This document shows, piece by piece, positions 54,005-59,847 of a DNA stretch of 64,000 nt. The translations under genes were made by a program, and so were the position numbers. The notes beneath the pieces were generated by a model. That model made no database searches and was not told the origin of the DNA. It saw only the letters and a list, made by a program, of their open reading frames with translations. This stretch comes from Burkholderiales bacterium 39-55-53 (GTDB taxonomy: Bacteria > Pseudomonadota > Gammaproteobacteria > Burkholderiales > Burkholderiaceae_C): NCBI GenBank assembly GCA_002282445.1, contig NCJK01000001.1, positions 806,001 through 870,000 of the forward strand. Reading direction: 5' to 3'. The first letter of the stretch is position 1; the number at the start of each line of letters is the position of its first letter.

Positions 54005-57000
54005 TTAAACGAGCACGCGCTCAATGCCACCGGCATTGGCTTGGTCGACGTAGTTGGGCATCCACTGCTCACCCAAAATTTTGCGCGCCATCTCGACCAC
54101 GATGTAGTCGGCTTCGAGCAAACCATTTTGCAGATCGTCGCCATAACGGCTCAAACCTTGCAAGCAGCTGGGGCAGCTGGTGAGGATCTTCATATCGCCT
54201 TTTGCCTCGCCCGTCATGGCGCGCAAAGCGGCTTCGTCTTTTTGCAACTCGGCTTCCTTGCGGAAACGCACTTGCGTGGCAATGTCAGGACGCGTCACAC
54301 CCAAGGTGCCCGACTCGCCGCAGCAGCGCTCGCTCTTGACGACTTGACTGCCCACCAAAGCCTTGACCGTTTTCATCGGGTCTTGTTGCTTCATGGGGCT
54401 GTGGCATGGGTCGTGGAACAGGTAGCCCGCTTGTTGCTCGGCGCTGAGCTTGATGTCTTTTTCCAACAAGTATTCGTGGATGTCGACGATGCGGCAGCCT
54501 GGGAAGATCTTGTCGAACTGGTAGCCCTGCAACTGGTCAAAGCAAGTGCCGCAGCTCACCACCACGGTTTTGATGTCCAGGTAATTGAGCGTGTTGGCCA
54601 CGCGGTGGAACAACACGCGGTTGTCCGTGATGATCTTGTCGGCCTTGTCGAACTGACCCGACCCTTTTTGCGGATAGCCGCAGCACAGGTAGCCGGGTGG
54701 CAGCACGGTTTGCACGCCCGCGTGCCACAACATGGCTTGCGTGGCGAGGCCCACTTGGCTGAACAACCGCTCAGAGCCGCAACCGGGGAAATAGAACACC
54801 GCTTCTGTTTCAGAGGTGGTGGTCTTGGGGTTGCGGATGATTGGCACGTAGTCTTTGTCTTCGATGTCCAACAAAGCGCGCGCGGTTTTCTTAGGCAAGT
54901 TGCCGGGCATCTTTTTGTTGATGAAGTGAATCACCTGCTCTTTGATCGGCGCAGTGCCCACTGAAGCAGGCGGTGCTTTGGTCTGCTTGCGAGCCACCAC
55001 TTGCAGGGCGTCGTGCGCGATGCGTTGCAACTTCATGCCCACACCCACCATGGCGCTACGCGCCAGCTTGATGGTCTCGGGGTTGGTGGCATTGAGCAAG
55101 AACATCGCAGCCGCGTTGCCAGGACGGAAGCTCTTTTGGCCCATCTTGCGCAAGAGGTTACGCATGTTCATGGACACCTCGCCAAAGTCAATCTTCACAG
55201 GGCAAGGCGACAAACACTTGTGGCAAACCGTGCAGTGGTCAGCTACGTCTTCGAACTCTTCCCAATGTTTGATAGACACACCGCGGCGTGTTTGCTCTTC
55301 GTACAGAAAAGCTTCGACCAACAACGAGGTGGCCAAAATTTTGTTACGTGGGCTGTACAGCAAATTGGCGCGTGGCACGTGGGTGGCGCACACGGGCTTG
55401 CACTTGCCGCAGCGCAAACAGTCTTTCACGCTGTCGGCAATTGCGCCAATGTCTGACTGCTGCATGATCAGCGATTCATGACCCATCAAACCAAAGCTCG
55501 GTGTGTAGGCTTGGCTCAAATCGGCGTGGCGCAGTGATGTGTCCACATCTTGATTGCGCAGCAATTTGCCTTTGTTGAAGCGACCTTCTGGGTCGACCTT
55601 GGCTTTGTAGTCGGCAAAAGGCTGTAACTCTGCGTCAGTCAAAAACTCCAGCTTGGTGATGCCAATGCCGTGCTCGCCCGAAATCACGCCGTCCAAAGAG
55701 CGCGCCAACACCATGATGCGAGCCACCGCTTCGTGGGCGGTTTGCAGCATGGCGTAGTTATCACTGTTGACAGGGATGTTGGTGTGCACATTGCCGTCAC
55801 CGGCGTGCATGTGCAGGGCCACCCACACGCGGCCTTTGAGCACGCGTTTGTGAATGGCGTTGCACTCTTCCAAGATGGGCGCGAGTTGTGCGCCTGTGAA
55901 GATGTTTTGCAACTGCGCACGGATTTGTGTTTTCCAGCTTGCACGCAAAGTGTGGTCTTGCAATTGTGGGAACAGTGCATCGCACTCATTGAGCCACTGC
56001 TGCCACAGGCCACGCACTTCGCCAATGAGCGAGCGGGCTTGCTGTACGCGGTCTTCAAGCAACTCGGGCGTTGGGATATCGGCTGCGTCGTCCGACTTGC
56101 CCAAAGGCAAATTTCCTTTGGCAAAGAAGTCTTCCAGAGCGTCGCACAGCTCAATCTTGTTGCGCAGGCTCAGCTCGATGTTGATGCGCTCGATGCCATC
56201 GGTGTACTCGGCCATGCGTGGCAAAGGAATCACCACGTCTTCGTTGACCTTGAAGGCGTTGGTGTGACGGCTGATCGCAGCCGTGCGCTTGCGGTCGAGC
56301 CAAAACTTTTTACGCGCTTCAGGGCTCACGGCCACAAAGCACTCGCCGCTGCGGGAGTTAGCCATGCGTGACACTTCAGAAGTGACACGTGCCACTTCGT
56401 CAGCGTCGTCACCTGCGATGTCGCCAATCAGCAGCATCTTGGGCAGGCCGCCGCGTTTGCTCTTGGTGGCATAACCCACGGCGCGCAAGTAGCGGTCGTC
56501 CAAATGCTCAAGGCCGGCCAGCAACACGCCGCTGCGTTTTTGCTCGGCAAACATGAAGTCTTTGATTTCCACAATGCTAGGCACAGCGTCTTTGGCATTG
56601 CCGAAAAACTCCATACACACGGTACGTGTGTGCACAGGCATGCGGTGAACAATCCAACGCGCGCTGGTGATCAAGCCATCGCAGCCTTCTTTTTGCACGC
56701 CAGGCAAACCGCTGAGGAACTTGTCGGTCACGTCTTTGCCCAAGCCTTCTTTACGGAAGGACTTACCGGGAATGTCGAGGCGCTCTTGGCGGATGAATGT
56801 TTTGCCGTCGGCTTGGTAGTACTTCAGCTCGAAGCTGGCCATCTCGGCATCGTGAATCTTGCCGAGGTTGTGGTCGACGCGAATGACATCAAGCCACTCA
56901 GCGTCAGGGGTAACCATGCGCCAGCTGGCCAAGTTGTCGAGCGCTGTGCCCCACAACACGGCTTTTTTGCCGCCTGCATTCATGGCGATGTTGCCGCCAA

Positions 57001-57877
57001 TGCACGATGCTTCGGCGGACGTTGGGTCCACCGCAAACACAAAACCACCGCGCTCAGCTGCATCGGCGACGCGCTGGGTGACCACACCGGCTTCGGTGTA
57101 AATCGTGGGCACTTTGTGTGCAATGCCAGGCAAGTCGACCATTTCGACTTCGGTCATGGCTTCGAGTTTTTCGGTGTTGATGACCGCACTCTTCCAAGTG
57201 AGCGGAATCGCGCCGCCTGTGTAGCCCGTGCCGCCGCCACGAGGGACGATGGTGAGGCCAAGGTCGATACAACCTTTGACCAAGCCCGCCATTTCTTCTT
57301 CCGTGTCTGGGGTCAGCACAACGAAGGGGTATTCCACACGCCAGTCGGTGGCGTCGGTCACATGGCTCACACGTGAGAGGCCGTCGAACTTGATGTTGTC
57401 GTGGGCGGTGTGCTTCTTGAGCAGACGTGCTGCTTTTTTACGCAAGGCGGCAATCGCGTCGAACTGGCTGTTGAAGGCCTCAATCGCGCGGCTGGCGGCT
57501 TGCAAGAGTTGGCCCACCAACTGGTCACGCTCGGCATCTGCATCAGGTGTGCGGCGTTGTTCCACTTCACCCAAGCGGTGATAAAGCGCTTCAACCAACT
57601 GGTGGCGGCGCTTGGGGTTGTCGAGCAAGTCGTCTTGCAAATAGGGGTTGCGTTGCACCACCCAGATGTCGCCCAGCACTTCGTACAACATACGGGCCGA
57701 GCGGCCTGTACGGCGCTCTTGGCGCAAACGCAGCAGCACATCCCAAGCCTCAGCACCGAGCAAACGCAACACGATTTCGCGGTCGGAGAACGAGGTGTAG
57801 TTGTAGGGAATTTCGCGCAGTCGCGGGCTTTCTTCAGCCGTGGCGAGCAAATGGTTCAGCGAGGTGGGAGCATTCAT
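54005..57877 (-). CDS. large FAD-linked oxidase with Fe-S/CCG domains (GlcD-GlcF fusion, DUF3683)
   Basis: A 1290-residue fusion. The N-terminal DUF3683 part (1-170) precedes a PCMH-type FAD-binding domain (about 175-400, [20 protein letters not shown]). An FAD-linked oxidase C-terminal domain follows (to about 760, [28 protein letters not shown]). Two ferredoxin motifs come next ([14 protein letters not shown] and [13 protein letters not shown] at about 815-900). Two CCG domains end it ([14 protein letters not shown]...LCCGYPQ, and [11 protein letters not shown]...DPCHSPM...RCCGESG). It looks like a D-2-hydroxyacid dehydrogenase of the lactate/glycolate type joined to its electron-transfer subunit. 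The substrate is unknown. Confidence 0.88.
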
Positions 57878-58048
57878 TGTGTGATGTGCGCACGAGGGCG
57901 CAATGGGGGCGCGAATTAAGAGGTCAATTTTACCGCAGGGGGCTTGAGTGCTTGGGGTTTAGGGCTGAGAGCACTTACTGGCTTTGGGGGTGTCCAACAT
58001 CGGTTTTTAGGGGTATTGCTGGTGACGTGGGTTTTAAAGTCACTTCTG

Positions 58049-58132
58049 GACAGTGATCAGGCCGTATGCGCGTTGGCTCCTCTTCGCTGTGCTCAGAATG
58101 TCTCTCACCGCGCATACGACCTGCTCACCGTC
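58049..58132. repeat. composite element, unit A: 23-nt inverted arms around a 38-nt core
   Basis: Left arm 58049-58071 and right arm 58110-58132 are inverted copies (20 of 23 positions pair). The core at 58072-58109 reads GTTGGCTCCTCTTCG... ...GTCTCTCACC and includes a CTTCGCTG.GCTCAGAATG stretch resembling a widespread dispersed repeat. Unit B (58180-58269) carries the same core in the opposite orientation. The arms differ but covary. The 400-bp gap holds no gene otherwise. Confidence 0.8.
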
Positions 58133-58147
58133 TTGCGGAGTAATAAG

Positions 58148-58162
58148 GTGCGCTTCGCGCAC
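58148..58162. repeat. central mini-hairpin between the two composite units
   Basis: GTGCGC-TTC-GCGCAC is a perfect 6-bp stem with a 3-nt loop, placed almost exactly between units A and B. Outer TTGCG/CGCAA bases around it are also inverted. Confidence 0.6.
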
Positions 58163-58179
58163 AAAATCGCCAGCGCAAA

Positions 58180-58269
58180 GCCCAAGGCGAGCAGCCTGCG
58201 TGTACGGTGAGCGACATTCTGAGCGCAGCGAAGAGGAGCCAACGTACACGCAGGCTGTTCGCCTTGGGC
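58180..58269. repeat. composite element, unit B: 26-nt inverted arms around the inverted 38-nt core
   Basis: Arms 58180-58205 and 58244-58269 pair at 25 of 26 positions, the exception being a G-T. The core at 58206-58243 is the reverse complement of the unit A core at 36 of 38 positions. The element ends 8 bp before the stop codon of the adjacent membrane-protein gene. Confidence 0.85.
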
Positions 58270-58277
58270 GCCTCACA

Positions 58278-58562
58278 TCAACGCTGCCAGCCTTTGCACA
58301 TCAACCACTGGGCCGTACCGCACACGATGACCAAAGCCGAATAAGTGGCCATTTTTCCGTCGACACCCCACAAAACTAGACCACCCGCCAAGACGGCTGT
58401 GCCTAAAACACCGCTTACCAAGGTCTGCTTCATCAGGCTCCAACCGGCTAAGGGCAGCCACCAACGGGCGGTGAAGCGGGCTACCAGCACGCAAAACAGG
58501 GCTACGCCCCATGCCGGCGCAATGAAGTTAAAAGTGTGAAGGATTTGTTCTAAAGGACCCAT
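58278..58562 (-). CDS. small membrane protein
   Basis: A 94-residue protein from the ATG at 58562 with about three hydrophobic helices (FIAPAWGVALFCVLVARFTA, TLVSGVLGTAVLAGGLVLWG, ATYSALVIVCGTAQWLMC). No family or catalytic motif is recognised. It is divergent from hemA across a 25-bp gap and lies just upstream of the composite palindrome. Confidence 0.7.
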   Translation of the reverse strand: MGPLEQILHTFNFIAPAWGVALFCVLVARFTARWWLPLAGWSLMKQTLVSGVLGTAVLAGGLVLWGVDGKMATYSALVIVCGTAQWLMCKGWQR

Positions 58563-58574
58563 GTGAGTAAATTT

Positions 58575-58580
58575 TATAAT
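58575..58580 (+). promoter_or_regulatory. consensus -10 box 7 bp before the hemA start
   Basis: TATAAT ends 7 bp before the hemA ATG, so initiation would occur at or next to the A of the start codon. No Shine-Dalgarno is visible in this gap. The -35 region at 17 bp is poor. Confidence 0.4.
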
Positions 58581-58587
58581 CCGCGAT

Positions 58588-59847
58588 ATGGCAGTCTGGG
58601 CTTTAGGCCTCAATCACACGACAGCCCCGCTTGATTTGCGGGGCCGTTTTACTTTTACGGTCGACCAAATGGGTCCGACCCTCGCGACCCTGCGCCATTC
58701 TTTTTCGTCTGACAGCGAGGTGGCCATCCTATCCACCTGCAACCGCACCGAGATTTATTGCGCGGGTAACGAAACCCAAATGCAACAGACCTTGGCTTGG
58801 TTGGCCAAGTCTGGCGGCGTGTCTGCTGACGATCTGAAAGGTCACACCTACGCCCTGCTCGAGGCTGACGCGGCCCGCCACGCCTTCCGCGTCGCCAGTG
58901 GCCTCGACTCCATGGTGTTGGGCGAGCCCCAAATCTTGGGCCAGATGAAAGACGCGGTGCGTGCTGCGTCTGAGGCCGGCGCACTGGGCACCACGCTCAA
59001 CCAACTGTTTCAACGCTCCTTCGCTGTGGCCAAAGAAGTGCGCAGCTCCACCGAGATTGGTGCGCATTCCATCAGCATGGCCGCTGCGGCTGTGCGTTTG
59101 GCCAGCCAGCTGTTTGAAGACCTGAGCGAAACCCGCGTGCTGTTTGTGGGCGCAGGCGAAATGATTGAACTGTGCGCCACGCACTTTGCCGCCAAGAACC
59201 CCAAGGCCATTGCCATTGCCAACCGCACATTGGAACGCGGCGAAAAATTAGCCACGCAATTCAGTGGCGAAGTCATGCGCTTGGCCGACTTGCCGCAGCG
59301 ACTGCATGAGTTTGATGTGGTCATCAGCTGCACCGCCAGTACCCTGCCCTTGATTGGCCTGGGCGCGGTCGAACGCGCACTCAAGCAACGCAAACACCGC
59401 CCCATGTTCATGGTCGACTTGGCTGTGCCGCGCGACATCGAACCCGAGGTGAAGTCGCTGGAAGACGTGTACCTCTATACCGTGGATGACTTATCCAACG
59501 TGGTGCAAACCGGACAAGCGAACCGCCAAGCCGCGGTGGCACAAGCCGAAGCCATCATCGATGCGGGCGTGCAAAGCTTTGAGCACTGGATGGACCAGCG
59601 CAGCAACGTGCCGTTGATTCAGCAACTCAACGCGCAATCTGAAGATTGGCGCAGTGCCGAATTGGCCCGTGCACGTAAAGCGATTGCCAAAGGCGACGAT
59701 GTAGATGCCGTACTGGAAAGCCTGTCACGCGGCCTGACCCAAAAAATGCTGCACGGCGCAATGGCCGAATTGCATGCAGGTGATGCAGAATCGCGCGAAC
59801 GTGCACGCCACGCGATTGAGCATTTCTTTTTGCGCGGCAACCGTTAG
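58588..59847 (+). CDS. hemA: glutamyl-tRNA reductase
   Basis: A 419-residue NADPH-dependent enzyme making glutamate-1-semialdehyde from Glu-tRNA, the first committed step to heme. The N-terminus is diagnostic ([23 protein letters not shown]), and the catalytic cysteine lies in [13 protein letters not shown]. Other motifs are [17 protein letters not shown] and the Rossmann NADPH site [15 protein letters not shown]. The C-terminal helices carry the dimerisation domain. It leads hemA-prfA-prmC, a standard operon. A GC-rich hairpin lies within codons 13-19 (58624-58644). Confidence 0.97.
58624..58644 (+). promoter_or_regulatory. terminator-like hairpin inside the 5' end of hemA
   Basis: GCCCCGC-TTGATTT-GCGGGGC followed by CGTTTTACTTTT, all within codons for [11 protein letters not shown]. 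It has the form of an intrinsic terminator or attenuator. It may be only a consequence of codon choice in a conserved protein segment. Confidence 0.35.

Follow-up and report, generated by a model that had tools for sequence, protein, structure and literature searches.

CGTC-tagged REPs, which include RPE-4, RPE-6 and dRS3, form head-to-head dimers and occupy gene ends as well as intragenic sites, among them uvrA (Di Nocera, De Gregorio and Rocco, 2013; PMC3733652). The sections of that work cited here present them as an orphan superfamily, for which a dedicated transposase was not found. In H. neapolitanus their CGTC-1 dimers are enclosed by 41-bp palindromes, which is the closest precedent that we have met (PMC3733652). 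Recognition is better described for TnpAREP, which binds and acts on single-stranded REP in a strand-specific manner, reading its loops and mismatches (PMC8266576).

Here we describe two hairpins that stand head to head in a window of 64,000 nucleotides (the whole stretch of DNA analysed), together with their relatives in other genomes. We lean towards reading them, with moderate confidence, as low-copy REP-like palindromes whose active form is the folded tip-sense single strand and which a putative trans-acting enzyme exchanges as units; the tip-sense strand is the one carrying the tip in the CATTCTGAGC sense. In the proposed scheme the palindrome would be recognised as folded single-stranded DNA, the tip-sense strand being bound strand-specifically by an HUH nuclease, as for REP and IS200-type hairpins. 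Acting in trans on this folded strand, such an enzyme would move or exchange the units. The units themselves lie between genes, paired head to head or alone, and also in-frame within loop regions of housekeeping proteins.

Results

The paired hairpins

The features of the locus are collected in Table 1. Recomputation upheld the figures first given for the pair: the 38-nt core at 58072-58109 and the reverse complement of that at 58206-58243 are identical at 36 of 38 positions, the arms pair at 20 of their first 23 and 25 of their first 26 positions, and arm positions 2, 3, 6, 7, 9 and 11, counted outward, are altered on both arms and still paired. With the two elements aligned outward from the core, positions 18, 21 and 23 are compensated as well; at positions 10 and 20 one element has G·T where its partner has a Watson-Crick pair, position 15 is G·A in one element and position 24 is A·C in one. 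The tip of element 1 is degenerate at two places, with GAGA for GCGA and the loop ACA for GNA.

Table 1. Features of the hairpin pair and its surroundings, in window coordinates.
Feature	Coordinates	Strand	Description
Large ORF	54005..57877	-	Start faces element 1; FAD-linked oxidase / Fe-S type, by eye only
Element 1 hairpin	58049..58132	- (tip-sense)	Arms 58049-58075 and 58106-58132
Element 1 tip	58076..58104	-	GAGA-CATTCTGAGCACAGCGAAGAG-GAGC
Spacer between elements 1 and 2 (head to head)	58133..58179		
Spacer mini-hairpin	58148..58162	-	Perfect, GTGCGC-GAA-GCGCAC (GTGCGCGAAGCGCAC); terminator-like score
Element 2 hairpin	58180..58269	+ (tip-sense)	Arms 58180-58209 and 58240-58269
Element 2 tip	58211..58239	+	Canonical, GCGA-CATTCTGAGCGCAGCGAAGAG-GAGC
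Small ORF	58278..58613	-	Stop 8 bases from element 2; start uncertain

The core pattern matches twice in the 64-kb window, against 0.01 matches expected. Folded with DNA parameters, the tip-sense strands reach z scores of -5.67 and -10.47, which 0 of 200 shuffles equalled in either case, and the opposite strands -2.74 (2 of 200 shuffles) and -7.69 (0 of 200). The match expectation and the shuffled folds together rule out a chance origin of the pair. A search for plasmid or phage homologues of 58045-58272 gave no match. Between 57800 and 58800 Rfam returns seven matches at E up to 1, none reaching its gathering score, which rules out a known RNA family. The spacers of some other pairs hold small hairpins that look, by eye, similar to the one in this spacer.

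Copies and their distribution

The core recurs, one of the checks that the preliminary description had set: seven copies are found in the same genome (at most three mismatches), and it is present in 22 of 84 genomes of the genus. Six of the seven form three head-to-head pairs, at 475.0-475.2, 864.1-864.2 (the window pair) and 967.8-968.0 kb; the seventh stands singly inside uvrA, at 971.4 kb. Named genomes, when scanned, yielded 25 stretches, titled Limnohabitans sp., Comamonadaceae MAG or Burkholderiales MAG. The freshwater genus of the element-bearing genomes is probably Limnohabitans. An exact 20-mer was found in 6 of 397 genomes and 2 of 126 genera in a family-level search, the second genus carrying a short form with no long stem by eye.

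We extracted 67 distinct copies for tip, stem and folding counts. Most are orthologous; being related by descent, they make the counts overstate independence, and many of the genomes are drafts. Close pairs are head to head in 10 of 10 distinct cases, with orthologues at three kinds of locus, which bears out the BIME-like inverted layout recognised at the outset. The element is also found inside protein genes, and its copy number is low (seven here).

The spaced pattern GCGA-N6-GAGCGNAGCGA-N4-GAGC reaches further, to 5 of 397 phylum genomes and 4 of 232 genera, all within this family; its reversed control is absent from all 397 phylum genomes. Stem scores range from 5.7 to 20.4 in the seven copies beyond the genus, whose G·T and A·C counts add up to 16:4 (1:2 in one of them, L306); three of these copies sit in valS. 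On its own, GAGCGNAGCGA is found 18 times in the own genome and its reversed control 4 times, a background that implies a share of chance matches among the 18. Further tips in this genome, with gene names assigned by eye, are located in valS, in a DUF3025-like ORF, near yqgE/ruvX (short stem) and in the recX-argC gap.

In viral contigs the spaced pattern matches eight times, twice with a fair stem, both in the same stretch (L317). A short form of the motif, mostly TGTCATTCTGAGCGNAGCGAAGAATC, matched 90 viral-contig stretches, and in the 80 that were fetched (L213-L292) no long stem was noticed by eye. Among 89 copies of this short form, N is A, C, T or G in 32, 30, 16 and 11, and TGTC or CGTC precedes 82. 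The motif, in six spellings, was not found printed in open-licence literature, and among the matches listed for palindromes none names Limnohabitans.

The tip

GCGA stands before CATTCT / the 21-nt core in 63 of the 67 copies and GAGC after the core in 61; the loop is GNA in 56 and ANA in 8. The sequence GCGNAGC is an exceptionally stable DNA mini-hairpin. In RNA-parameter folds of the seven own-genome copies, the core pairs as TTCT-GA-GC-NNN-GC-GA-AGAG, with a three-base loop and facing GA steps, and in most of these copies the tip fold is closed by GC..GC. The loop had been judged far larger than in known REPs; this judgement needs correction, as the loop can pair with itself (GC-GACA-TTCT-GA-GC-NNN-GC-GA-AGAG-GA-GC in RNA-parameter folds). 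We offer the mini-hairpin tip, as the core can be drawn, as a proposal, because the DNA-parameter minimum-energy fold pairs the tip otherwise. Tip-internal pairs are nearly invariant across the four covariation sets.

The stems

Stems are unrelated between loci. Flanks are nonetheless self-complementary in 64 of the 67 distinct copies, in line with the hairpin model first advanced, the exceptions being L017, L050 and one copy of L056. The last has lost most of its stem; L017 and L050 have almost none, their arms coming from two different hairpins. Such chimeras, with arms from the two hairpins of one pair, look like a sign of core-to-core recombination.

Covariation was counted in the uvrA, window, valS and prfC-uvrA sets; set D, B1, B2, C2 and the reversed copies stand outside these, and L031 and L068 are not among the rows. 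In the uvrA alignment (19 rows) 91.9% of cells are paired and 20 of 37 pairs are double-changed, a result equalled by 0 of 500 shuffles; much of this covariation falls between hairpin classes, and inside the R class (13 rows) nine columns are double-changed. The window family, 13 rows with both elements of the pair, has 15 of 38 pairs double-changed, again with 0 of 500 shuffles. The excess is not significant in valS (6 rows) or in the prfC-uvrA set (9 of 11 rows). The earlier claim of covarying stems is thus sustained in the uvrA and window sets and not in the other two. Likewise, the six compensated pairs once taken to indicate kept pairing are insufficient in two elements; it is the orthologues, in the uvrA and window sets, that show the pairing.

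As part of the reading that we prefer, each unit would consist of a conserved tip of about 29 nt on a stem of 20-30 bp, whose sequence is free and whose pairing is kept. It is possible, though we consider it doubtful, that the tip alone is recognised and the stem may be any pairing sequence, single-stranded hairpins being swapped at fixed sites in a kind of hairpin homing by a putative trans enzyme.

Copies inside uvrA and valS

All uvrA and valS copies that were examined are in-frame. Their tips are translated as HSERSEEE (uvrA), DILSEAKR (valS), SSLRSEC (uvrA, reversed) and PLRDAQNV. Since the frames differ and the tip occurs in both orientations, it is the DNA that is conserved and not the peptide; protein-level selection on the inserted peptide is ruled out on the same grounds. 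In the solved UvrA five residues lie between the matched stretches that flank the insertion site, and in the ValRS chain 1gax none.

We surveyed valS at 30 loci, the best matches among 250 family genomes and hence a non-random sample; 27 were readable. Inserts of at least 34 aa are present in 10 of these 27, eight of them with tips related by eye. An origin of the arms from the host gene, by target copy, is unsupported by the valS empty sites, compared by eye.

Other inserts occur at these places. In two genomes (G044 and G062, loci L099 and L096) the uvrA site holds an unrelated, GGGGTCAGACCCCAATT-like palindrome, and in valS of another genus (L348) the hairpin belongs to a further repeat type, one with TTCGACAAGCTCAGGGCGAGC. 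The uvrA genes of three more (G038, G045 and G050; L070, L095 and L098) have shorter self-complementary or arm-like inserts with no tip, as if the tip had been lost.

Strand preference

Selection for pairing on one strand would let G·T, but not A·C, persist on that strand. The tip-sense strand has 64 pair-columns with G·T against 17 with A·C, a count that leaves out set D (4 rows) and tip-adjacent positions, in which columns are mutually dependent and indel rows out of register (L031 and L068 of set C1, L015 of B1) inflate all mismatches. By set, the G·T:A·C ratios are 11:2 in uvrA, 7:0 in reversed uvrA, 5:2 and 9:2 in the window elements, 8:6 in valS, 6:0 in reversed valS and 18:5 in the other sets. 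The 8:6 of the sense valS copies tells against a strong general strand rule. A replication-strand mutation bias is unlikely to be the source of the excess because both members of head-to-head pairs lean alike, some of the per-member counts being tiny.

Copies antisense to their gene separate mRNA structure from DNA-strand structure. The ratio is 7:0 in uvrA L051/L062 (two genomes) and 6:0 in valS L019; antisense valS L124, L125 and L126 have 6, 5 and 5 G·T against 0, 1 and 0 A·C, with L122 and L127-L129 absent from these per-copy counts. When stems are folded alone, the tip-sense strand gives the more stable structure in 60 of 67 copies under RNA parameters and in 59 of 67 under DNA parameters. 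The mRNA-strand stems of L019, L051 and L062 reach -41.2, -35.5 and -45.6 kcal/mol, against -60.0, -54.1 and -61.1 kcal/mol for the tip-sense strand. The G·T excess persists even in these antisense copies, an observation that disfavours structure in the mRNA and favours a folded single DNA strand, the tip-sense one, as the relevant form.

These antisense copies weigh most heavily on the notion of an RNA element, a hairpin that works in transcripts as a 3' end stabiliser, terminator or binding site and whose pairing is selected in RNA: their mRNAs carry A·C opposite G·T, with stems that fold far worse. We consider this notion unlikely, although several observations suit it. Four of the five intergenic places with ORFs examined lie between convergent ORFs (L008, L009, L023 and L187), the window pair comes after a stop codon, and both the G·T excess and the better folding also hold with RNA parameters; G·T pairing is itself taken as a sign of transcription by Di Nocera et al. 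(2013; PMC3733652). The window pair also has a sub-threshold match to the Rfam family Cis52_sRNA over 58061-58237 (26.6 bits against a gathering score of 56, E 0.007), but no family reaches its gathering score there, and no T-run follows either window hairpin by eye. The terminator scan accepts loops of 3-8 only, and the window hairpins are beyond its reach.

Hairpin classes at uvrA

A quick tree of uvrA flanks places 46 genomes, with three of the 49 loci (L084, L087 and L088) outside. The 21 tip-bearing genes all fall within one clade of 26, so the insertion is old. Hairpin classes are scattered on this tree: the sisters G001/G026, G023/G055 and G074/G075 differ (support 99, 100 and 90), and parsimony gives eight class changes over 21 rows and four classes. 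The R and K hairpins share 13 and 15 of 28 positions in their arms and 35 of 36 in the tip.

Within a class, hairpins differ by 1-9 of 96 positions (K), 1-6 (R1) or 4 (V), and the 300-bp flanks of same-class copies by 23-60 of 300; flank divergence was taken from 14 of the 21 tip-bearing rows and the hairpin-versus-flank differences from 13. In the first 30 bp upstream, divergence is 0.122 for K-K, 0.213 for R-R and 0.171 for K-R. In the first 30 bp downstream it is 0.119 within R against 0.211 for K-R and 0.229 for R-V, which gives some class signal; upstream, and downstream past 30 bp, copies of the same class diverge about as much as copies of different classes. Constraint may explain slow change but not switching, and we read the pattern as exchange of little beyond the hairpin: whole hairpins would be exchanged between species at uvrA.

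A mutational account, in which template switching during replication recopies the arms and flips the hairpins with no selection on pairing, seems to us quite improbable. Such switching has been put forward as a mechanism by which hairpins arise and are kept and, on rare occasions, loops are inverted (PMC8794818), and reversed uvrA hairpins do retain a similar stem by eye. Yet it predicts Watson-Crick stems with no strand preference, against the observed G·T excess, and leaves unexplained the conserved tip, the head-to-head pairs and the near-identical K stems in non-sister species. Template switching need not be excluded by the exchange of folded single strands that we favour: it may act alongside, in arm matching and hairpin flipping. 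Very improbable is the spread of long-lived hairpin alleles by ordinary homologous recombination, their classes held by strong constraint with no special exchange, for which the old insertion in one clade and the downstream class signal speak, but under which class would hardly go untracked by the flanks (14 of 21 rows) and tracts would repeatedly have to end near the hairpin.

Transposase genes

The genome has a single Y1_Tnp (RAYT-like) gene, at G000:C1:922298-922636 (L038, L069). Its 2.2-kb surroundings contain one inverted repeat, AATTAATTGGGGTC, which is not the element motif; two GCGCAGCGA matches lie about 1.6-1.8 kb from the gene, and 10 of 200 shuffles give as many. Y1_Tnp genes occur in 65 of the 84 genus genomes, 20 of the 22 that bear the element and 45 of the 62 others. 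The link to a RAYT, which the preliminary description had advised looking for, is thus unsupported: another repeat adjoins the only such gene, and Y1_Tnp is common in element-free genomes too. Within Y1_Tnp, the one family searched in the 84 genus genomes, no transposase is tied to the elements.

Discussion

Essential proteins can carry palindromic inserts that are conserved as DNA rather than as peptide. The antisense in-frame copies in uvrA and valS allow mRNA structure to be told from DNA-strand structure, and the outcome points to DNA. Signs of exchange are rare, and the switching of uvrA hairpins, which has left little mark on the flanks, would be one.

Like GTAG REPs, BIMEs and REPINs, the elements are palindromes in inverted pairs, and strand-specific recognition of single-stranded DNA is a model borrowed from those systems. 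Unlike GTAG REPs with their RAYTs, in a comparison that draws partly on general knowledge, here no RAYT is flanked by the element, there are seven copies and the tip is the conserved part. A GTAG is found ahead of the tip where the stem is of a type with CCGTAGCGA; the window, uvrA and valS copies lack it there.

In Rickettsia palindromic elements, sequence is conserved across the whole element; here only the tip is, as the arms of the R and K hairpins at uvrA illustrate. The two are alike in being in-frame palindromes in protein genes, a likeness that rests on the account of the Rickettsia elements in Di Nocera et al. (PMC3733652) and on general knowledge. Coding palindromes in Nematomorpha mitochondria are likewise long inverted repeats in functional protein genes; in contrast to the present elements they are gene-embedded, with arms that code conserved protein, and the abstract of that work mentions no dispersed tip (PMC6649704).

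The CGTC-tagged REPs come closest. Both are short palindromes that form head-to-head dimers, as in all ten close pairs here, and that lie in uvrA and tRNA synthetases and at gene ends (PMC3733652). For those REPs the cited sections describe no dedicated transposase; for the present tips, Y1_Tnp shows no link. The short form in viral contigs, with TGTC or CGTC in front, looks like a member of this superfamily. Where those REPs have the tag CGTC, TGTC or CCTC, the present tip reads GCGAC in 63 of 67 copies, which puts CGAC in the place of the tag; their 8-9 bp stem opens with A-T, against outer A·G and T·G followed by TCT/AGA here, and their 3-nt tail is mostly CCA, against GAGC in 61 of 67. The tip, moreover, sits on locus-specific covarying stems of 20-30 bp. 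As it departs from the tag, tail and outer-pair rules, we do not file the element among CGTC-tagged REPs; by analogy, it would work like one without belonging there. We see in it an atypical relative of the bacterial palindromic repeats described so far, with a conserved tip, exchangeable paired stems and looser relatives in sister genera.
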